Assembly: GCA_016207645.1 (NCBI GenBank)
Contig: JACQPH010000101.1
Span: forward strand, 1 to 64,000
DNA: 64,000 bases
Reading direction: 5' to 3'
DNA from: Elusimicrobiota bacterium
GTDB lineage: Bacteria; Elusimicrobiota; Elusimicrobia; Elusimicrobiales; UBA9959
Shown: positions 3,545 through 59,271 of the stretch, one piece after another
Layout of the letters: every line of letters begins with the position of its first letter
Position numbering within the stretch: the first letter of the stretch is position 1
The notes under the pieces: model-generated
What the model was told of the DNA's origin: nothing
What the model saw: the letters and a program-made list of their open reading frames with translations, nothing else
Database searches by the model: none
Position numbers and translations under genes: made by a program

Positions 3545-6500
3545 GTGAAGATAAAACACGGACTTGCGGCCGCGGCCGCTCTGGCTTTCCTGTTCCTGGC
3601 GGGCGTTCAGACCTTCGCCGCCTCGCCCGCCCAGGTCAGCTACCAGGGCACGCTCAGGAAGAACGGCGTGCTTTTCAGCGGCACCGCCGCCATGGAGTTC
3701 CGCATTACCAACGCCGACGGCTCCGCGGTCTATTGGGCTTCCGGGTCCACGGACGTGGTGGTCTCCACCGGTCTTTTCCGCTACGCTCTCGGCTCCCCCA
3801 ACGAGGTCGATTTCGGCAATATCGTCTGGAAAGAGATCACCCCTTACGTGCAGATGAACCTGGACGGCGGCTGGCTGCCGCGCGAGCCGCTGTATACCTC
3901 CGTCTACTCGCTGCATTCCAGGACGGCCGAGTCCTCCACCGGGACTTTCACCGTCAACGGCGGCGACCTGAAGCTCGTTTCCGCCACCGGCAGCAAGGGC
4001 ATTTATTTCCAGGACGGCACCGCGCAGTACAGCGCCCCCGGCTGGGTCGTCACCGGCGCTTACACTTCTTTCGCGGGAGGGGCCGGCGTCGGTACCCTGA
4101 CCCCGGCCACCAGGCTGGACGTGAAGGGGGCCGCCGCCGACCCTTATATACAGTTCTGGCGCGACGAGAACGGGGTGGTGAAGGCCACCATGACCGCGGC
4201 CGGCCTGCTTTACGCCGACGGCTCGCAGCTGAGCAACCTGCCGGCGGGGGCCGACAATATGGGGAACCATACCGCTACCCAGGCCCTGAGCATGGCCGCT
4301 TTCCCCGTAAATAACGCCGGGGCGATAACCGCCAACGGCCAGGTCACCACTTATTCCAGCGCCACGGTAGTTTCGGCTTTCGGCCTCGGCGCGCCCAGGG
4401 TCAGGCTGGCGGGCGGGGTAGAGGTGTCCTCCTACTCGGCCGGCGGCGTCTATATTTCCTCTAACGTGACCCTCGCTTCCGGGGGCAGATATTTCGGCGA
4501 CGGCTCCAGGCTGACGGGTGTTAACGACAGCCTTGGCAGCCATATAGCTACCCAGACCCTGAACATGGCGGGCTACGAGATCTCCGGCGTCTCTACGATC
4601 ACCGTTGCCGCGGCCCTGCGCTTCGACGCTAACGTGGCTGTCTCTTCCGCCGCCGGACTTTACAGCGGGATATATATTTCCACCAACGTGAACATAGCTC
4701 CCGGCGCCCGATATTACGGCGACGGCTCGGGCCTGACCGGGATAGTCGGCGTGGACAACCTGGGAAACCACACCATGACGCAGGGCCTGGCCACCGGCCC
4801 GAACTGGATCTCCTACGACGGCTCCCCCTCCGGGCTTAACCTGGACGCCCTGGGGAATATAGGCGTGAACCAGGCGGCGGGTTCCGCCAGCCTGGACGTG
4901 CGCGGCGCCGGCGGCAGCTATATACAGATCTGGCGCAACTCCTCCGGGGTCATCAGGGCCTCGATGACGGTCGCGGGCGCGTTCTACGCCGACGGCTCGC
5001 AGCTGCGCAATGTGCCGGCCGGCGGCACCGCCAACCAGGCGCTGAACATGGCTTCTTTCGATATCGCCAATGTTTCCACGGTCACGCTGAGTTCCGTGAC
5101 CAGTTCCGGGATAGGGGTGGTGTTCAGTACCAATGTGCTGCTGATGAACGGGCGGCTGGGCGTCAATACCTCTCTTCCGCAGGAAAGCCTGGACGTGAAC
5201 GGCAATTTCAAGAGTTCCAGCCTGTCGGGTTTCGGGAATCAATGCGTTTACGCCGATGATAACGGCAGGCTTCTCCTGTCCGGAAGCGGACTGTGCGGCA
5301 GCGCTTCCGGTTTGGATAATCTGGGCAACCGGATCATGCTCGGCAATCTTATCACCGGCAGCAACTGGATCTCCTTCGACGGCAGCGCCGGCGGCCTGTC
5401 GGTGAACGTCAGCAGCAATGTCGGCATAGGCGTCCTCTCGGCCGCGACGCGGCTGGACGTGCAGGGGCGGAGCGGGGACAGCTACGTGCAGATCTGGCGC
5501 GATTCCGCCGGGGTGATAAAGGCTTCTATGACGGCCGCCGGCCTGCTCTACGCCGACGCTTCGCAGATGGTCAACCTGCCTTCAGGCGGGGACAGCCTCG
5601 GCGATCATACTTCCACGCAGACCCTTGATATGTCCGGTTTCCAGATAGTGAACGCGGGCTCGGTCACGGTCACCGCGGCCGCCGGAGTGGGCGCCGCCAG
5701 GCTGAGTCTCAATACGAACGTGGAGATCTCTTCCGAGACCGATCCAGCGCTGGGCGCGGGCTTGCGCGTTTCCTCTAACGTGTATATAGTCGGTTTCTCT
5801 TCCGCGGCCAAATATTACGGCGACGGCTCCGGCCTGACCGGTGTTATCAGCTCGCCCGACGGCCTGGGCAACCATACGGCCACGCAGGACCTGGCCATGA
5901 CCTCCTTCGATATCACCGGCGTCTCCACTATTACGGTCAGTTCCGTCACCGGCACCGGCATAGGCGTAGTGTTCAGCACCAATGTGCTGATCATGAGCGG
6001 GAACCTGGGCGTGAACAAGGCTCTGCCGCAGGCGAGCCTGGACGTGAACGGGAATATAATGAGCTCCAGCCTTTCCGGCGCCGGGGATCAGTGCGTATAT
6101 GCCGATAATACCGGCCGCCTGCTCCTGTCCGGGGTAGGGACTTGCGGAAGCGCGGCGGGGCTGGATAACCTGGGCAACCGGATCATGCTCGGCAATCTTA
6201 TCACCGGCAGCAACTGGATCTCTTTCGACGGCAGCAACGGCGGCCTGTCGGTGAATATCAGCAGCAATGTGGGCATCGGCATCCTGTCGGCCGCCACGCG
6301 GCTGGACGTGCAGGCGGCCGCGGGGGACATTTACGCGCAGATCTGGCGCAACTCCGCGGGGGTCATCCAGGCCTCGATGTCGGCCACCGGGGAGCTGTAT
6401 GCGGACGCTTCCAGGATGCGCAACCTGCCTTCAGGGGCGGACGACCTGGGCAGCCACACGGCCACGCAGGACCTGGACCTGGCCTCCAGCGATATAATCG

Positions 6501-9500
6501 GCGTTTCCACCATCACGGCGGGCTACCTGACCAGCGCCGGCCCCGGCGTGATCTTCAGCACCAATCTGCTGGTCATGGACGGCAGCCTGGGCGTGAGCAC
6601 CCTGGTGCCGCAGGAAAAACTGCATGTCACGGGCAAGATACGCGCTTCCAGCCTGTCCGGCTCCGGCAACAGGTGCGTCCAGGCCAACGATTCCGGCGTG
6701 CTGGGGCTTTCCGCCGACGCCTGCGGCCTGGCAGGGGCGGGCGGGGACAACCTGGGCGACTATACCATGACCTTCAACCTGCTGACCAACGGCAACTGGC
6801 TCTCGGGAGACGGCGGGAACGAGGGTATACAGATAGACTCGCTCGGGAACGTTTCCATCGGGGACTCCGCCAATAATGCCCGCCTCGACGTGCGCGGCGG
6901 CGCGCTCACTAATATCCAGGTATGGCGCGACGTGGCGGGGGTGACGCGGGCTTCCATAAGCAGCGGCGGCGGCCTGGCCGCCAGCAGCGCTACCGTCAAC
7001 GGCCAGCTCACCGTTAATTCCAGCGCCACCGTGACCGCGGCCCAGGGTCTGGGCTCGCCCAAGCTGAAGCTCTCCTCGAACGTGGAGATCTCCTCCGAGA
7101 CCGCCGCCTCCTACGGCGGCGGCGTGCGCGTTTCCTCCAACGTGTACATAGTGGGCTATTCCTCGGCCGCCAGGTATTACGGCGACGGCTCCGCGCTGAC
7201 CGGCCTGACCGGGCTGAACGCCTCCAATATCAGCGCGGGTACGCTTTCCGACGCCAGGCTTTCCGCCAACGTGCCCCTGCTCGACGCGGTCAATACTTTC
7301 TCCAGCAGCCTCACGGTGACCGGCGCCGGCGGCGCCAGGCTCGCCCGTATCGGTTTCAACGACGCGGTGGAGTTCTCTTCCGCCGCGGCCGGCAGCTACG
7401 GCGGCGTGCAGTTCTCCACCCATGTCTTTCTGCCGGCCGGCGCGAAGTATTACGGCGACGGCTCGCAGCTGACCGGCGTGAGCGGTTCCGACGACCTGGG
7501 GAACCATACCGCCACCCAGGACCTGGACCTGAACACCTTCAACCTGGTGAACGTGGCCTCCCTGACCGCCAGGGGCGCCGTGACCGCCTATTCCAGCGTT
7601 ACCGTGGCCGGCGACCTCGGCCTGGGCGCCGCTTTGCGGTTCGACAATAATGTGGAACTCTCCTCCTCCACCGGGCTGAACCGGGGGATCCAGATCTCCA
7701 CCAACGTCTACATAGTCGGCATCGCTTCCGCCGCGAAGTATTACGGCGACGGCTCCGGCCTCTACGGCGTGACCGGCGACAATATCATCGATACCCTCGC
7801 GGCCACGCTGACAGCCGGCTCCGACGCCGGCGGTTCCAGTATAACCAACCTGGGCTCGCTGACGGCCGGCGCCGATATAACCGCCGGCGGCTCCGTGGCC
7901 GCCAGCGGGGATGTAACGGCTGCCGGGCATGTCACGGCCGGCGGCCCTCTCACCACCTATTCCAGTGCCACCGTCGCGGGGGCGCTGGGCCTTGGCGCGG
8001 CCAGGCTCCGTTTCAGCGCCGGCGTTGAGATCTCCTCCCAGACTTCCGCCGCGCTGGGCGGCGGCGTCGGCGTCTCCTCGAACGTGTACATAGTAGGTTT
8101 CTCTTCCGCCGCCAAATATTACGGCGACGGCTCTTCTCTCACCGGGGTCTCCGACGATCTGGGGAACCATACGGCCACGGCCGACCTGAACATGGCCTCG
8201 AACGATATCCTCTCGGTCTCCACCATTACCGTCGGGTACCTTTTCAGCCAGGGCGCCGGCGTGGCTTTCACCACCAATGCTTTTATCCTTGGCGGCCGGC
8301 TCGGCATCAATACGTCTTTGCCGCAGGAAAGTCTGGACGTGAACGGCAACATCATGAGCGCCAGCCTGTCGGGCTTCGGAGACCGGTGCGTGTATGCCGA
8401 TACTACAGGTAAGCTCCAATTGGCCGGAGATGTATGCGGAACCGGCGCCGGGACTGATAATATGGGCAACCACACGATGACCCAGAATCTTAAAACCGGC
8501 GGCAACCTGATAACTTATGGCCCCGGAGTCGGCAGCGGCCTGTCTATCAATATAAGCAGCAATGTCGGCATAGGCCTTTCTAACGCCGCGACCAGGCTGG
8601 ACGCGCAGACGGGGCTGGGGGACCCTTATATGCAGTTCTGGCGCGACTCGGGCGGCACCATTATAGCTTCCATGTCGGCCACCGGCAGCCTCATGTCCTC
8701 GCGGTTCGTGGGCGACGGCTCCGGCCTGAGCAAGCTGCCGCCCCTGCCGGAGAACCTGATCACCAACGGCTTCTGGCTGTCCAATGACGGAGTTAACGGC
8801 GGCATTTACGTGAACGCCTCCAACAATGTCGGCGTCGGTACTCCTTTCCCCGGCGCCAGCCTGGACGTTAAGGCTTCCGGCGCTTACGCGCAGCTCTGGC
8901 GCGATTCCGGGGACCTGGCCGTGGCCACGATGACCGCGGAGGGCCTGTTCAGCGTCTCCTCCAACGTGTATATAGCCGGCTTCTCCTCGGCTTCCGTGTA
9001 TTACGGCGCCGGCTCGGCCCTTACCGGCCTGAACGCTTCCAATATCGGCGCGGGGACGCTGGCTGACGCGCGGCTTTCCGCCAATGTGCCCCTGCTGGAC
9101 GCCGCCAATACCTTCTCCAGCAGCATCACGGTGACCGGGGTTGCCGGCGCCAGGCTGGCCCGGATCGGTTTCAACGACGCGGCGGAGCTCTCTTCCGCGG
9201 CGGCCGGCAACTACGGCGGCGTGCAGTTCTCCACCAACGTCTTCCTGCCGGCGGGTGCGAAGTATTACGGGGACGGTTCCGCGCTGACCGGCATAAGCGG
9301 CCCCGATGATCTGGGCAACCATATCGCAACCGCCGACTTGAACATGAATAACTTTAACCTGCTCAATGTAGGCGCCATAGCCCCCGATCCGGCGTCCAGC
9401 GTGACCGTGGTAGGGGTGCTGCAGTCGTTCGGGAGCGGTTATACGCAGATCTGGCGCAATTCGATAGGCGTCGCGGTGGCCTCGATGACGGACGCCGGCG

Positions 9501-10486
9501 TGCTTTACGCCGACGGCTCCCAGCTCACCGGCGTGGCCGGCGGCGGCAGCCTGTCGGCGCTGCTGGCCTCCAGCCCCGACGCGGCGAACGGCTATATTAT
9601 CAACCTCAGCAGCCTGGCCGCCGGCCGGTCCGTGGCTTACGCGCCGCTGGACGTGCAGGCGTCCGCCGCCGGTACCAACAGCCAGATCTGGCGCGACGAG
9701 GCGGGCGTCTATGTGGCGTCGATGTCGGCCGCCGGAGCGTTCTACGCCGGAAGCGCGGTTATGAACAGCGCGGAGCTGTATTCTTCCCTGGTGGTTAACA
9801 ATGTGGAGATAAGCTCCCATATGTCGGTGGGCAATCAGGGCGGGGTAGCGCCTTCCGTCGTCGTTATGGCCTCAAGCGTTATAGAGGAGGCGGATATAGA
9901 CAATGTCAATCCGAACGTCGGGGTGCTGGGCGCCGCTCTGCTGAACCCCACCGCCGTCAGAAGCGGAAGCGGCCCCGAGATGGTTATCGGCGGCAATTTC
10001 CGGGGAGGAATAGTTCCGGGGATGGGCGTCGACAAGGACTTCCCCACTCTCATGGGCTTGAGGACCGCCGCCTGGGCCAATACCTCGGGCCAGGTGACGA
10101 ACGCCTACGGTATCTGGGTGCAGAACGAGCAGACCGCGGGGGTAGTAGTGAATAATTACGGCGTTTATGTGGCGACCCCTGTATTAAGCGGCGGGGCCAT
10201 AACCAACAATTACGGTATTTATATAAGCACCCAGTCGGGGTTAGGCGCTGCTACGGACTACAACATCTATTCCGCGGGCGCCGGCAGCGTTAATCGCTTC
10301 GAGGGCGCGGTCCGGGTGGACGGAGCGTTGAGGCTGGCGTCCAAAACAAAAGCGGAGATATTGCTGCTCGATCCCGTTGATGTGGGAGAGATGTATTACT
10401 GCTCGGATTGCACCCCGAAGACCATGGTCGTTTCCACCGGGACCGCGGTCGGCAATTTCGCTAATGGCGCCGGCGGAGCTTTCTAA
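3545..10486 (+). CDS. giant repetitive secreted/surface protein (2313 aa, tail-fibre-like repeats)
   Basis: Signal peptide MKIKHGLAAAAALAFLFLAGVQTFA; N-terminal VSYQGTLRKNGVLFSGTAAMEFRITNADG domain; about nine (K/R)YYGDGSxLTG motifs plus many DNLGNHTATQ, NASNIxAGTLxDARLSANVPLLDA and LYADGSQL modules. Confidence 0.85.
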   Translation: MKIKHGLAAAAALAFLFLAGVQTFAASPAQVSYQGTLRKNGVLFSGTAAMEFRITNADGSAVYWASGSTDVVVSTGLFRYALGSPNEVDFGNIVWKEITPYVQMNLDGGWLPREPLYTSVYSLHSRTAESSTGTFTVNGGDLKLVSATGSKGIYFQDGTAQYSAPGWVVTGAYTSFAGGAGVGTLTPATRLDVKGAAADPYIQFWRDENGVVKATMTAAGLLYADGSQLSNLPAGADNMGNHTATQALSMAAFPVNNAGAITANGQVTTYSSATVVSAFGLGAPRVRLAGGVEVSSYSAGGVYISSNVTLASGGRYFGDGSRLTGVNDSLGSHIATQTLNMAGYEISGVSTITVAAALRFDANVAVSSAAGLYSGIYISTNVNIAPGARYYGDGSGLTGIVGVDNLGNHTMTQGLATGPNWISYDGSPSGLNLDALGNIGVNQAAGSASLDVRGAGGSYIQIWRNSSGVIRASMTVAGAFYADGSQLRNVPAGGTANQALNMASFDIANVSTVTLSSVTSSGIGVVFSTNVLLMNGRLGVNTSLPQESLDVNGNFKSSSLSGFGNQCVYADDNGRLLLSGSGLCGSASGLDNLGNRIMLGNLITGSNWISFDGSAGGLSVNVSSNVGIGVLSAATRLDVQGRSGDSYVQIWRDSAGVIKASMTAAGLLYADASQMVNLPSGGDSLGDHTSTQTLDMSGFQIVNAGSVTVTAAAGVGAARLSLNTNVEISSETDPALGAGLRVSSNVYIVGFSSAAKYYGDGSGLTGVISSPDGLGNHTATQDLAMTSFDITGVSTITVSSVTGTGIGVVFSTNVLIMSGNLGVNKALPQASLDVNGNIMSSSLSGAGDQCVYADNTGRLLLSGVGTCGSAAGLDNLGNRIMLGNLITGSNWISFDGSNGGLSVNISSNVGIGILSAATRLDVQAAAGDIYAQIWRNSAGVIQASMSATGELYADASRMRNLPSGADDLGSHTATQDLDLASSDIIGVSTITAGYLTSAGPGVIFSTNLLVMDGSLGVSTLVPQEKLHVTGKIRASSLSGSGNRCVQANDSGVLGLSADACGLAGAGGDNLGDYTMTFNLLTNGNWLSGDGGNEGIQIDSLGNVSIGDSANNARLDVRGGALTNIQVWRDVAGVTRASISSGGGLAASSATVNGQLTVNSSATVTAAQGLGSPKLKLSSNVEISSETAASYGGGVRVSSNVYIVGYSSAARYYGDGSALTGLTGLNASNISAGTLSDARLSANVPLLDAVNTFSSSLTVTGAGGARLARIGFNDAVEFSSAAAGSYGGVQFSTHVFLPAGAKYYGDGSQLTGVSGSDDLGNHTATQDLDLNTFNLVNVASLTARGAVTAYSSVTVAGDLGLGAALRFDNNVELSSSTGLNRGIQISTNVYIVGIASAAKYYGDGSGLYGVTGDNIIDTLAATLTAGSDAGGSSITNLGSLTAGADITAGGSVAASGDVTAAGHVTAGGPLTTYSSATVAGALGLGAARLRFSAGVEISSQTSAALGGGVGVSSNVYIVGFSSAAKYYGDGSSLTGVSDDLGNHTATADLNMASNDILSVSTITVGYLFSQGAGVAFTTNAFILGGRLGINTSLPQESLDVNGNIMSASLSGFGDRCVYADTTGKLQLAGDVCGTGAGTDNMGNHTMTQNLKTGGNLITYGPGVGSGLSINISSNVGIGLSNAATRLDAQTGLGDPYMQFWRDSGGTIIASMSATGSLMSSRFVGDGSGLSKLPPLPENLITNGFWLSNDGVNGGIYVNASNNVGVGTPFPGASLDVKASGAYAQLWRDSGDLAVATMTAEGLFSVSSNVYIAGFSSASVYYGAGSALTGLNASNIGAGTLADARLSANVPLLDAANTFSSSITVTGVAGARLARIGFNDAAELSSAAAGNYGGVQFSTNVFLPAGAKYYGDGSALTGISGPDDLGNHIATADLNMNNFNLLNVGAIAPDPASSVTVVGVLQSFGSGYTQIWRNSIGVAVASMTDAGVLYADGSQLTGVAGGGSLSALLASSPDAANGYIINLSSLAAGRSVAYAPLDVQASAAGTNSQIWRDEAGVYVASMSAAGAFYAGSAVMNSAELYSSLVVNNVEISSHMSVGNQGGVAPSVVVMASSVIEEADIDNVNPNVGVLGAALLNPTAVRSGSGPEMVIGGNFRGGIVPGMGVDKDFPTLMGLRTAAWANTSGQVTNAYGIWVQNEQTAGVVVNNYGVYVATPVLSGGAITNNYGIYISTQSGLGAATDYNIYSAGAGSVNRFEGAVRVDGALRLASKTKAEILLLDPVDVGEMYYCSDCTPKTMVVSTGTAVGNFANGAGGAF
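4485..9300 (+). repeat. protein-coding repeat array with near-identical DNA segments
   Basis: YYGDGSxLTG recurs at about 4491, 4711, 5810, 7171, 7446, 7736, 8113, 8997 and 9261; 5321-5373 and 6170-6222 are identical over 53 bp. Confidence 0.8.
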
Positions 10487-21712: not shown

Positions 21713-21873
21713 CGTAACTGCTCAGGTCGCTATAGGGAGTTCGGGTTGGCCGGGGTTTTGCCCCGCGAACCCCGGAAGTGGAAACCCTTGCGTCGGTTTC
21801 CCCCCGTAGCGGGGCCCCCCTTCCGCAAGGGGTTCGAGAAAAAAAACCCCCGCCAACCCTCCACTACCTGTAC
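21713..21873 (-). repeat. MITE-like inverted-repeat element, copy B
   Basis: CGTAACTGCTCAGGTCGCTATAGGGAGTTCGGGTTGGCCGGGGTTTTGCCCCGCGAACCCC...GGTTTCCCCCCGTAGCGGGGCCCCCCTTCCGCAAGGGGTTCG...CCAACCCTCCACTACCTGTAC; inverted relative to 54681-54847. Confidence 0.85.
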
Positions 21874-37163: not shown

Positions 37164-37238
37164 CGTAACTACCCGGGTAGTGGAGGGTTGGACGGGGTTT
37201 TGTTTCGCGAACCCCATACAGCGATTTGAGTGGTTATA
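37164..37238 (+). repeat. MITE-like element, internally deleted copy C
   Basis: CGTAACTACCCGGGTAGTGGAGGGTTGGACGGGGTTTTGTTTCGCGAACCCC then CAGCGATTTGAGTGGTTATA (degenerate right terminus). Confidence 0.7.
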
Positions 37239-42505: not shown

Positions 42506-42679
42506 TGTAACTGTTCAGGTGCTGCTGGAGGGGTGGCCGGGGTTTTGTTTCGCGAACCCCATGCGGAAGGGGGGGCCCCGCCGGGCGGGGGGAAACCGAC
42601 GCAAGGGTTTCCAACTTCCGGGGTTCGCGGGGCAAAACCCCGGCCACCCCGGACCCCGGAGAGGGACCAGAATAGTTAC
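42506..42679 (+). repeat. MITE-like inverted-repeat element, copy D
   Basis: TGTAACTGTTCAGGTGCTGCTGGAGGGGTGGCCGGGGTTTTGTTTCGCGAACCCC...GGAAACCGACGCAAGGGTTTCC...CCGGGGTTCGCGGGGCAAAACCCCGG...AATAGTTAC; flanked by TATTCCT / TATTTCT. Confidence 0.88.
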
Positions 42680-52015: not shown

Positions 52016-53811
52016 GGTTTAAACAGTACCAGTTTATTGCCGTGATAGTCGAAAAGTTTTTCGCGGCAGAGGGCGCCGGCGGCCTCCAGTTCCTTCGCTA
52101 TGGAGGGGAGGTCCGTCCTCAGCCCGGCGAAGGGGCTGTACGGCAGCAGCAGGAAGTCGAAGGCGCCGTCCCGGAAAGCCCGCGCCGCCTTCTCCGCCGA
52201 GAAACCCGGCGGCAGGTCCCTGTCCCAGGCCAGCTTGCCGGCCATGCCGTGTTTGGCCAGGTAGTAGTGGCTCGGCTCCACTTCCATCGGCGCGTAGATC
52301 TTCAGGCCGGGCCTGTTCAGGGACTTGAAATATTCCACGGCCTCCCAGTAGGGGAAGCTGTTCCCGTGATAATTGAACACGGTCCTGCGCTGGTAGGGGT
52401 TCTTCGCGAAGACGGACTGGAAAACGAACAGGGCCAGCAGGCCGGCGGCCAGCGGCTTCGCCAGGCGCCCGGGCAGGGCCGCGGCCAGGTCCGAGACCGC
52501 CAGCAGCAGCATGAGCACCAGGCCGATGTAGAAAGGCTGCGCGTGGCGCACGAAGCCGACGGCCAGGGTGGCGCTTATCATGAGATAATAAGCGGCGGAA
52601 AAGTACAGCAGCAGGGCCGTTTCCAGGTTCCTGCGGCGGTACAGGACATAGGCGGCGGAGGCCGCCAGCAGCGCGGTTATGGGCGCGCCGCAGGTCATAT
52701 AGATCACTTTCAGATTTAAGGTCATTATAGCCGGGTCGTACAGGTATTCGTAGACCAGGGCGGTGTTCCGTATGCCGTAGGCCGCGCTTATCAGAATGAA
52801 AGGCAGCCCGACGAGAAGCGGCATGGCCAGGGTTTTCAGGCCGTATAGCCAGGCTTCGCGCCGCTGCGGATAGACCAACCATAAAGCCGCCAGGGCCGGG
52901 ATGAAGGAGAGCACGAGGCCGAGCAGCAGCTGTTTATAGAAGAAACCGGCCGCGGTCCAGAAGGCGCATTTGAGGAACTCCTCCCGCTCCCCGGTAGCCG
53001 CGGCTTTCATGAAATGGAAAATGGAGGCCGCGAAGAACAGCACCGTGCCGGCCTCCAGCTCGGCGCTGGTGCCCAGGTTGAAGAAGGTGGGGAAAAAGGC
53101 CGCCAGCAGGTAGGCCAGGCGCGGCGGCGGGCCGGCCTTCATCAGTTTCAGCAGGCGCAGCAGGTAGACGGCGGCCAGTACCAGCAGAAAGAACTGCGCC
53201 GCGCGCGGCGCCGCCTCGTTAACTCCCAGCAGCAGGTAGGCCGGCAGGTAGAGGAACTTCGCCAGCGGGGGATAGCGCAGGACGGTCTCGAACCGGCCTA
53301 TGGCTTCGGCCAGGCCGAAGCGCAGCGAGGCGAAGAAGAACAGATTCCCGGCGGCGGCGAGGCCCAGCACGGCGGCGCCCCGGCCCGGCAGTTCCATGCC
53401 TTTCCGGTAAAGCCCGACCGCGGCCGCGGCCGTTATGGCGGCCAGCGGCAGGAAGAGCGCCGGCAGCAGGCGTATGTCCAGACCCAGGGCTGTGGTAGCG
53501 CGGCCCAGCAGCCAGGCCGGCGGACCGGCATGGGACTGGTCGTCGGCGCCGGTGGGAAGGGGGGTAAGCCATAAGAAAAGAGAGGCGGCGGCGGCCAGCA
53601 GGACGGCCGGCCAGAGCTCTTTCAGTTCGGGGAAAGAGGCTTCCGGGGAAACTTCGCCGAGAGGGCTGTAGAGCGCGGCCGCCGAAAGGAGGATAAAAAA
53701 GTTGAGGAGCGCCCACTGCGCGGGCCAGGGCAGCGGCAGATGCCAGACCGGGTAGAAAATATACGAGAAGGCCGTCAGCAGGAAGAGCGCCCAGTTCAGC
53801 CGGACCTTCAT
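52003..53811 (-). CDS. polytopic membrane protein, putative glycosyltransferase
   Basis: Many TM helices, DDQSHAGPPAWLLGRATTALGLDIRLLPAL; within glycan locus; overlaps asnB start. Confidence 0.6.
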   Translation of the reverse strand: MKVRLNWALFLLTAFSYIFYPVWHLPLPWPAQWALLNFFILLSAAALYSPLGEVSPEASFPELKELWPAVLLAAAASLFLWLTPLPTGADDQSHAGPPAWLLGRATTALGLDIRLLPALFLPLAAITAAAAVGLYRKGMELPGRGAAVLGLAAAGNLFFFASLRFGLAEAIGRFETVLRYPPLAKFLYLPAYLLLGVNEAAPRAAQFFLLVLAAVYLLRLLKLMKAGPPPRLAYLLAAFFPTFFNLGTSAELEAGTVLFFAASIFHFMKAAATGEREEFLKCAFWTAAGFFYKQLLLGLVLSFIPALAALWLVYPQRREAWLYGLKTLAMPLLVGLPFILISAAYGIRNTALVYEYLYDPAIMTLNLKVIYMTCGAPITALLAASAAYVLYRRRNLETALLLYFSAAYYLMISATLAVGFVRHAQPFYIGLVLMLLLAVSDLAAALPGRLAKPLAAGLLALFVFQSVFAKNPYQRRTVFNYHGNSFPYWEAVEYFKSLNRPGLKIYAPMEVEPSHYYLAKHGMAGKLAWDRDLPPGFSAEKAARAFRDGAFDFLLLPYSPFAGLRTDLPSIAKELEAAGALCREKLFDYHGNKLVLFKPCAE

Positions 53812-53876
53812 TTCGTCGCCCTTATAAGCGCGCGAGCGGCAGCGAGCTTTCCCCGTAAGTTTAGCCGGACCTTCAT
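53808..53876 (-). other. mini-ORF 2 (identical 22 aa)
   Basis: Identical 69-nt ORF; TGA 53808-53810 overlaps the glycosyltransferase ATG 53809-53811. Confidence 0.6.
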
Positions 53877-53941
53877 TTCGTCGCCCTTATAAGCGCGCGA
53901 GCGGCAGCGAGCTTTCCCCGTAAGTTTAGCCGGACCTTCAT
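53873..53941 (-). other. mini-ORF 1 (22 aa, MKVRLNLRGKLAAARALIRATK) created by the tandem repeat
   Basis: ATG at 53941 overlaps the methyltransferase stop TGA 53938-53940; its TGA overlaps the mini-ORF 2 ATG. Confidence 0.6.
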
Positions 53942-54660
53942 TTCGTCGCCCTTATAAGCAGGGAGCCGGCTATTTCCCGCAGGAGCGGAAGGCGCTCCAG
54001 GAGGGCGCCGAACTTATCGGCGGCCGGGGCCAGCGCCCCGGGCACCCAGGGGTGCAGGAAATCGAAAGGCTCCGTCTTCACCCCGGAAAAGCCGGCGTCC
54101 AGCAGCGTCCCTTTTATCTGCCAGCGGAAAAAAGCGGTCTCGTCGGGCGAGTCGCCCATGAAGGCCTTGAGCGGCGGGATATTCTTCTGGAGCATGATCT
54201 GCGGGTTCAGCATGTTGGGTTCGGTGAAAACGAAGTTCCCGCCGGGCTTGAGCACGCGCAGCATCTCCGGGAGGGCTTTGGGCAGGTTCAGGTGGTGCAG
54301 CACGGAGCTGCCGTAGACGCAGTCGAAGGAATTCTCCGGGAAGTCCAGTTCCTCCACGTTCATGACCCGATACTTCACGTTGGGCGCGGGGTTCTGCGCG
54401 CGGGCCCTTTCCACCAGTTCCGGGGAGAGTTCTACGGCGGTGATGTCCGCGCCGCTGCGGGCTATCAGGGCCGTGAAGATCCCGGTGCCGCAGCCTATCT
54501 CCAGGGCCTTTTTGTGAGGCCCGAGGGCTCCGGCCGACCTATACATCCTCGCCCTGCGCTCGGCGCGGAGCCGCCCGGCCGGGCCGGACCAGCCCCAGTA
54601 GAACTCGGCGTTCCCGGAAATTTTCCGCCCGTGGGCCAGTTCGTTCTCTATTCTTTCCAT
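53938..54660 (-). CDS. class I SAM-dependent methyltransferase
   Basis: ALEIGCGTGIFTALIARSGADITAVELS; FDCVYGSSVLHHLNLPKALPEMLRVLKPGGNFVFTEPN. Confidence 0.87.
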   Translation of the reverse strand: MERIENELAHGRKISGNAEFYWGWSGPAGRLRAERRARMYRSAGALGPHKKALEIGCGTGIFTALIARSGADITAVELSPELVERARAQNPAPNVKYRVMNVEELDFPENSFDCVYGSSVLHHLNLPKALPEMLRVLKPGGNFVFTEPNMLNPQIMLQKNIPPLKAFMGDSPDETAFFRWQIKGTLLDAGFSGVKTEPFDFLHPWVPGALAPAADKFGALLERLPLLREIAGSLLIRATK

Positions 54661-54680: not shown

Positions 54681-54847
54681 CGTAACTGCTCAGGTAGTGG
54701 AGGGTTGGCAGGGGTTTTGTTTCGCGAACCCCTTGCGGAAGGGGGGCCCCGCTTCGGGGGGAAACCGACGCAAGGGTTTCCCTCTTCCGGGGTTCGCGGG
54801 GCAAAACCCCAGCCAGCCCGAACCCCGTAGCGACCTGAGCAGTTACG
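54681..54847 (+). repeat. MITE-like inverted-repeat element, copy E (type copy)
   Basis: Perfect 15-bp terminal inverted repeats CGTAACTGCTCAGGT...ACCTGAGCAGTTACG; 167 bp with nested palindromes; no significant ORF. Confidence 0.93.
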
Positions 54848-59231: not shown

Positions 59232-59271
59232 GGTAACTACCCGAACCCCTTATAGCGACCTGGGTAGTTAC
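59232..59271 (+). repeat. minimal MITE-like derivative, copy F, with 7-bp flanking direct repeat
   Basis: GGTAACTACCCGAACCCCTTATAGCGACCTGGGTAGTTAC; flanks ACCGCTT (59225-59231) and ACCGCTT (59272-59278). Confidence 0.88.

Follow-up and report, generated by a model that had tools for sequence, protein, structure and literature searches.

ERIC and RUP elements are palindromic, intergenic and MITE-like, and span 100–170 bp; the repeat described here resembles them in these respects, but a search of Rfam gave no sequence match to it. REPs are built from units of about 20–40 bp tagged GTAG or CGTC and form inverted doublets, for which heterodimers have been described (PMC3733652). QMITE2 of Coxiella burnetii is a MITE that folds into a very stable stem-loop; its repeats measure 7–9 bp and its transcript folds at about -113 (PMC10969869). 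IS66 insertion sequences are recognized, according to the literature, by a direct repeat of 8 bp and by ends that start with GTAAGCG (PMC11946415).

The window analyzed here, a stretch of 64 kb that forms part of contig C74, comes from an uncultured Elusimicrobia MAG (assembly of 2.8 Mb in 167 contigs, estimated to be 81% complete). It contains an element that is akin to IS66 insertion sequences and MITEs in its GTAA ends, its 8-bp duplications and the finding of its ends around IS66 transposase genes in a sister genus. In contrast to the published IS66 ends, the consensus end GTAACTGCTCAGGT starts with GTAACTG, so that the common GTAA is followed by CTG instead of GCG, and the IS66 element of parental type carries a DruA-domain gene. 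The interior of the MITE consists of foreign structured sequence. With QMITE2 the element shares its size, its terminal repeats and target duplication, and its folding into a stem-loop at intergenic sites, but the core of the present element is multi-branched, shows compensatory changes class-wide and is independent of the terminal repeats. This core, termed D2, and a second unit, D1, resemble REP, BIME and REPIN sequences in that they are palindromic units of high copy number in intergenic space, form inward-facing doublets that are often heterodimeric, and show compensatory changes in their stems; the units are, however, about 137–150 nt long and contain three-way junctions, whereas REPs are hairpins of 20–40 bp. 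D1 and D2 have no evident GTAG or CGTC tag. We conclude that the element is probably a non-autonomous miniature transposon of the IS66 family that carries a captured D2 module of an older repeat family, which makes the MITE shell and the structured repeat two separable layers.

The Element and Its Copies in the Window

An earlier note on this DNA described a 167-bp element with perfect 15-bp terminal inverted repeats at 54681–54847, and the sequence reads as claimed: positions 54681–54695 are CGTAACTGCTCAGGT and positions 54833–54847 are its exact reverse complement. Judged by the family consensus, the true element spans 165 bp (Table 1); the C/G pair at its outer edges and the ATC/GAT beside it extend the repeats of this copy by chance. 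The copy is without a target duplication, as its flanks agree at 3/8 positions. The nested palindromes that had been noted are real and pair as a single long hairpin (z = -10.5 for the RNA fold and -9.2 for the DNA fold). They belong to a separate structured module that occurs genus-wide without these MITE ends, and the interior is no remnant of a parental insertion sequence.

All six copies or derivatives previously listed for the window were found, with slightly moved boundaries at 21713–21870, 42507–42679 and 59233–59271, and they do occur in both orientations, the copy at 21713–21870 on the minus strand and the rest on the plus strand. The description as MITE-like is borne out by the high copy number, the terminal inverted repeats, the 8-bp target duplication, the lack of an ORF and the internal-deletion derivatives. 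The window also contains three tandem units of ~65 bp at 53793–53987, the first two of which are 98% identical, and an ORF of 2313 aa at 3545–10486 (+) that is made of many internal repeats of about 40–300 nt.

Table 1. Copies and derivatives of the element in the 64-kb window, with the parts of the copy at 54682–54846.
Feature	Position	Strand	Details
Complete IS66-type MITE with D2 cargo	54682–54846	+ (strand of best core folding)	Perfect ends GTAACTGCTCAGGT/ACCTGAGCAGTTAC
Left terminal inverted repeat, GTAACTGCTCAGGT	54682–54695	+	
Right terminal inverted repeat	54833–54846	-	
D2 core, long hairpin tipped by a three-way junction	54694–54830	+	Covariance model R1, 130.0 bits
Second complete copy	42507–42679	+	Target duplication TATTCCTT/TATTTCTT, 7/8; D2 core 137.6 bits
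Copy with intact end near 21714 and eroded opposite end	21713–21870	-	D2 core 113.8 bits
Internal-deletion derivative: left end and left arm of the hairpin, then degenerate right end	37164–37238	+	
Deletion derivative of only 39 bp that keeps both ends	59233–59271	+	Flanks ACCGCTTG/ACCGCTTA, 7/8, sequence read directly
Right half of a copy, truncated where the contig begins	1–57 (end approximate)	+	

Copy Number and Genomic Context

BLAST of the element against its own genome listed 48 matches (best 5.7e-83), with 181 first-look candidates. The 13-nt end has 91 matches in this genome, compared with 2 for a reversed control pattern, and a covariance model of the core has at least 92. The genome-wide search that the earlier note had proposed thus places the family far above chance and excludes that it merely consists of a few copies. 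Many contigs of the assembly begin or stop inside a copy, as is typical of repeats that assemblers cannot resolve, and the repeat explains assembly breaks in these genomes. When 29 D2 core copies from the same genome were examined, both ends were present in 18, one end in 7 and neither in 4, some copies being cut by contig ends. An exact search with the core in GTDB genomes returned mainly Elusimicrobia MAGs and some genomes titled only "bacterium", and a search for a phage or plasmid origin gave no match to the element among 50,697 records of phages and 72,556 of plasmids.

The gene context of the copies is intergenic, which agrees with the placement originally claimed, but 18/60 copies overlap an ORF by crude gene calling, probably owing to over-extended start sites. 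Relative to the flanking genes, 22 copies are co-directional and 12 opposed, while 4 lie between convergent and 4 between divergent genes, again with crude gene calls. A role as a transcription terminator was considered and rejected, as convergent genes are not preferred (4/42) and no U-run follows the element in the copies read.

Several copies in this genome contain additional palindromic sequence. A module of ~45 nt (GAAGCTATGCTAGTGCCGTATCAAAGGGCTATGCCCCTCAGACGGCC and variants) is inserted within D2 at differing points at loci L020, L026, L027, L029 and L032, and the apical loop of D2 at L327, L036 and L018 holds all or part of a REP-like palindrome, AAAAAGGTGCCAGCC...GGCTGGCACCTTTTT.

An IS66-Type Shell

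Direct repeats of 8 bp that agree at 7/8 positions or better flank 14 of the 25 intervals bounded by both ends in the own genome, a few of which share one end; 2000 shuffled pairings gave a mean of 0.71 and a maximum of 5. Among the same 25 intervals there was no signal of a target duplication at any other length. Mini-elements of 58–60 bp carry the same ends and perfect duplications. The shell is a true MITE, defined by GTAACTGCTCAGGT ends and an 8-bp target duplication: it is short, has terminal inverted repeats and no transposase ORF, duplicates its target at a fixed length, and has its ends in common with an IS66-type element of the sister-genus genome G033, such an element not having been found in the own genome.

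Matches to the 14-nt end, allowing one mismatch, number 0–7 in other members of the genus, compared with 0–2 for the control. The end is abundant in three genomes of the sister genus, with 266 matches in G145, 33 in G033 and 15 in G155, and there encloses unrelated palindromic interiors, mostly with perfect 8-bp duplications. Loci L320, L324, L325, L328, L333 and L336 of G145 illustrate such unrelated interiors with perfect 8-bp duplications, one MITE being nested in another. The IS66 profile PF03050 matches only G033 among 59 genomes of the family, and this genome is also rich in the ends. An element of 2436 bp (L339:32-2467) is bounded by them and encodes an IS66 transposase (PF03050, 7e-48; NF033517, 3e-83; zf-IS66) together with a DruA-domain protein. 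This intact element lacks a target duplication and is mismatched at two positions of its left end. An IS66 fragment is also found between the same ends in a 1202-bp deletion derivative from a sister-genus genome, and a third IS66 gene fragment in G033 abuts a right end. The DruA-domain (PF14236) gene is located at L339:122-1009, beside the IS66 transposase gene.

The occurrence of these ends around IS66 genes in G033, the only one of the 59 genomes with PF03050, indicates that the shell belongs to the IS66 family. It has the 8-bp direct repeat of IS66 elements at the insertion site, and a transposase lies between the same ends, the latter in one genome only (G033). That its copies were moved by an IS66 transposase is a well-supported inference. 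It represents a genuine MITE family of IS66 type that is new as a member.

The search for a parent transposase, another check that had been suggested, therefore led to an IS66-family element with the same ends in a sister genus and to none in the own genome. The IS66 transposase profile had no match in any of the 32 genomes of the genus, the own genome included, although the absence from the own genome is weak evidence because the MAG is 81% complete and many of its contigs break at the repeat. A search for an autonomous element in the own genome revealed no inverted pair of ends 1–3 kb apart among the one-mismatch matches listed.

Distribution and Folding of the D2 Core

When the element was compared with the genus genomes by BLAST, it was mostly the core that aligned (query positions about 18–139), whereas the ends did not. 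We built the covariance model for which the earlier note had called, R1, and it matches the D2 core in 32/32 genus genomes with 1–92 copies each, as well as in 58/342 genomes of the phylum, including eight other families of the class; the weaker of these phylum matches were taken on score, and two, L104 and L105, were inspected. Both L104 and L105 carry the D2 core sequence, and L104 also has the tail GACTGGGCATCTCGCGG. Copies read outside the own genome are without GTAAC ends. The core of ~130 nt is not IS66 DNA, but an older and separate structured module.

D2 is folded as a long hairpin of ~130 nt that is capped by a three-way junction. Across 26 sequences, 21 pairs have changed on both sides, and 90% of cells are paired compared with 34–61% when the partner is slid, which is indicative and not a formal test, as shuffle controls keep shared ancestry and the related copies within a genome make the counts non-independent. 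With RNA parameters, 68/69 copies fold more stably on the plus strand than on the minus strand, as do 65/69 with DNA parameters, and the 182 G-T pairs compare with 26 A-C pairs in an alignment fitted to the structure, which favors an excess of G-T. Loop and junction nucleotides are shared base for base. Pairing of UUGCG with the loop sequence CGCAA in a pseudoknot was rejected, since it can form in a single subgroup and is disrupted in the remaining two. No family in Rfam matched at either gathering or permissive thresholds. A description of the D1/D2 family was not found in the literature searched, outside which most subscription journals fell, so that the lack of a name does not establish that the family is new. 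D2 copies in G024 and G008 (for example L131, L134 and L148) have an extra insert of 70–90 nt in the first tip hairpin, which is similar within each genome.

D1 and Inward-Facing Dimers

In genomes such as GWC2_64_44 (G024) and G008, D2 follows a second hairpin of ~137 nt, D1, after a linker of ~30 nt. The corresponding model, R2, matches all 32 genus genomes with 9–99 listed copies each; R1 and R2 are 137 and 144 positions long, respectively, for units of about 137–150 nt. D1 likewise shows covariation: changes on both sides are found in 22 pairs, and pairing stands at 88% compared with 34–46% when slid. Close D1-D1 pairs picked among the matches listed are inward-facing in 14/14 cases, D1-D2 and D2-D2 pairs also occur, and the pairs read combine different subtypes. 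Inward-facing heterodimers have a total length of 330–450 nt at the loci read, and two D2 units are paired in the same relative arrangement at L346, which comes from a different family within the class. We also considered whether an autonomous D1/D2 element might enclose a gene between its arms, but the sole wide pair found (G028:C40, ~500 nt apart) revealed no obvious mobile gene by eye. At L127, L134, L270 and L276, the first 35–45 nt of D1, or a decayed form of this segment, lies directly upstream of a complete D1, which is possibly a signature of insertion.

Proposed Origin and Alternatives

A pathway is proposed where an IS66-family DDE transposase, acting in trans on the GTAACTGCTCAGGT ends, would have cut and inserted the element and thereby generated the 8-bp duplications. 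The ends, the duplications and the matching ends on IS66 elements of the sister genus are observed; the transposase and its action are presumed, as none was found in this MAG. D2, with its one-strand fold of about 130 nt and three-way junction, sits between the IS66 ends as a captured unit of an older family, which is present in every genus genome and in other families of the class and usually lacks IS66 ends there. In several genomes, the loci read place D2 beside the related unit D1 in inward-facing heterodimers of 330–450 nt that are REP doublet- or REPIN-like. The compensatory changes would imply that single-strand folding was selected, most simply, we suggest, because the units require it for their spread or function. 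In the lineage of the window, capture of D2 between IS66 ends could then have provided a second route of spread that led to ~100 copies. A hairpin repeat family appears to have switched its route of spread via capture between the ends of an insertion sequence.

Whether D1 and D2 themselves constitute a mobile family is a more tentative matter. They could be the two arms of an undescribed, class-wide, giant REPIN-like family (heterodimeric, 330–450 nt, its two three-way-junction hairpins pointing inward) that is spread by an enzyme reading folded single-stranded DNA or RNA, with one arm captured and re-amplified by the IS66 MITE, a possibility that we rate at slightly under an even chance. Among intergenic repeats of bacteria, D1 and D2 stand out by their size and elaborate structure. 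As their fold is kept by compensatory changes across many genomes and no known mobilizing enzyme goes with it, which enzyme or function has selected for this fold becomes a concrete question.

The strong conservation of pairs, the preference for G-U pairs on one strand and the presence of D1 and D2 in 32/32 genus genomes would also be consistent with putative functional noncoding RNAs or RNA-level regulators, such as mRNA stabilizers or attenuators, that the host has multiplied because they are useful. Copies co-directional with both flanking genes outnumber opposed ones (22 vs 12), but this orientation bias is weak and based on crude gene calls. Such a role is rather unlikely given that D2 copy number varies from 1 to over 90 among genomes, that Rfam has no match even at permissive thresholds and that copies in a non-systematic sample adjoin unrelated genes with no locus in common. 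MITEs often retain the interior of the parent insertion sequence, so D2 could in principle be decayed IS66 interior whose likeness to hairpins elsewhere reflects convergence. This is very hard to reconcile with the IS66 elements of G033, which have no D2 match inside, or with the genus-wide occurrence of D2 where no IS66 gene was found and where the D2 copies read have other ends; the identity of the loop and junction nucleotides to the base also argues against convergence.

Capture of D2 by an IS66-type MITE must also be weighed against mobilization as a REP/BIME-type repeat by a RAYT (Y1 tyrosine) transposase that acts on folded single-stranded DNA, a link suggested by the earlier note. Strand-specific folding, inverted doublets and intergenic position would all suit such a mechanism, and Y1 transposase genes are present in 27/32 genus genomes. 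Four are found in the own genome, all on contigs other than that of the window, and NCBIfam identifies two of these as REP-associated tyrosine transposases, below its cut-off. When 33 Y1 loci were searched for the link (about 1.5 kb on each side), however, none contained a D1 or D2 unit, with a single match at E = 0.12, and five genomes without a Y1 match still hold 11–37 D2 and 23–51 D1 copies. Moreover, the 8-bp target duplications and terminal inverted repeats of the window element are not RAYT features, and described REPs, at 20–40 bp (PMC3733652), are much smaller than these units of ~137–150 nt, which contain a three-way junction. We therefore rejected RAYT mobilization as improbable. 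No association of D1 and D2 with RAYT genes was thus found at these loci; CGTC REPs likewise lack one (PMC3733652). RAYT-like genes at L070, L071 and L072 in the own genome are each accompanied by a private long inverted repeat that contains GGGACG / CGTCCC, and these private repeats resemble TIRtrons (PMC3733652).
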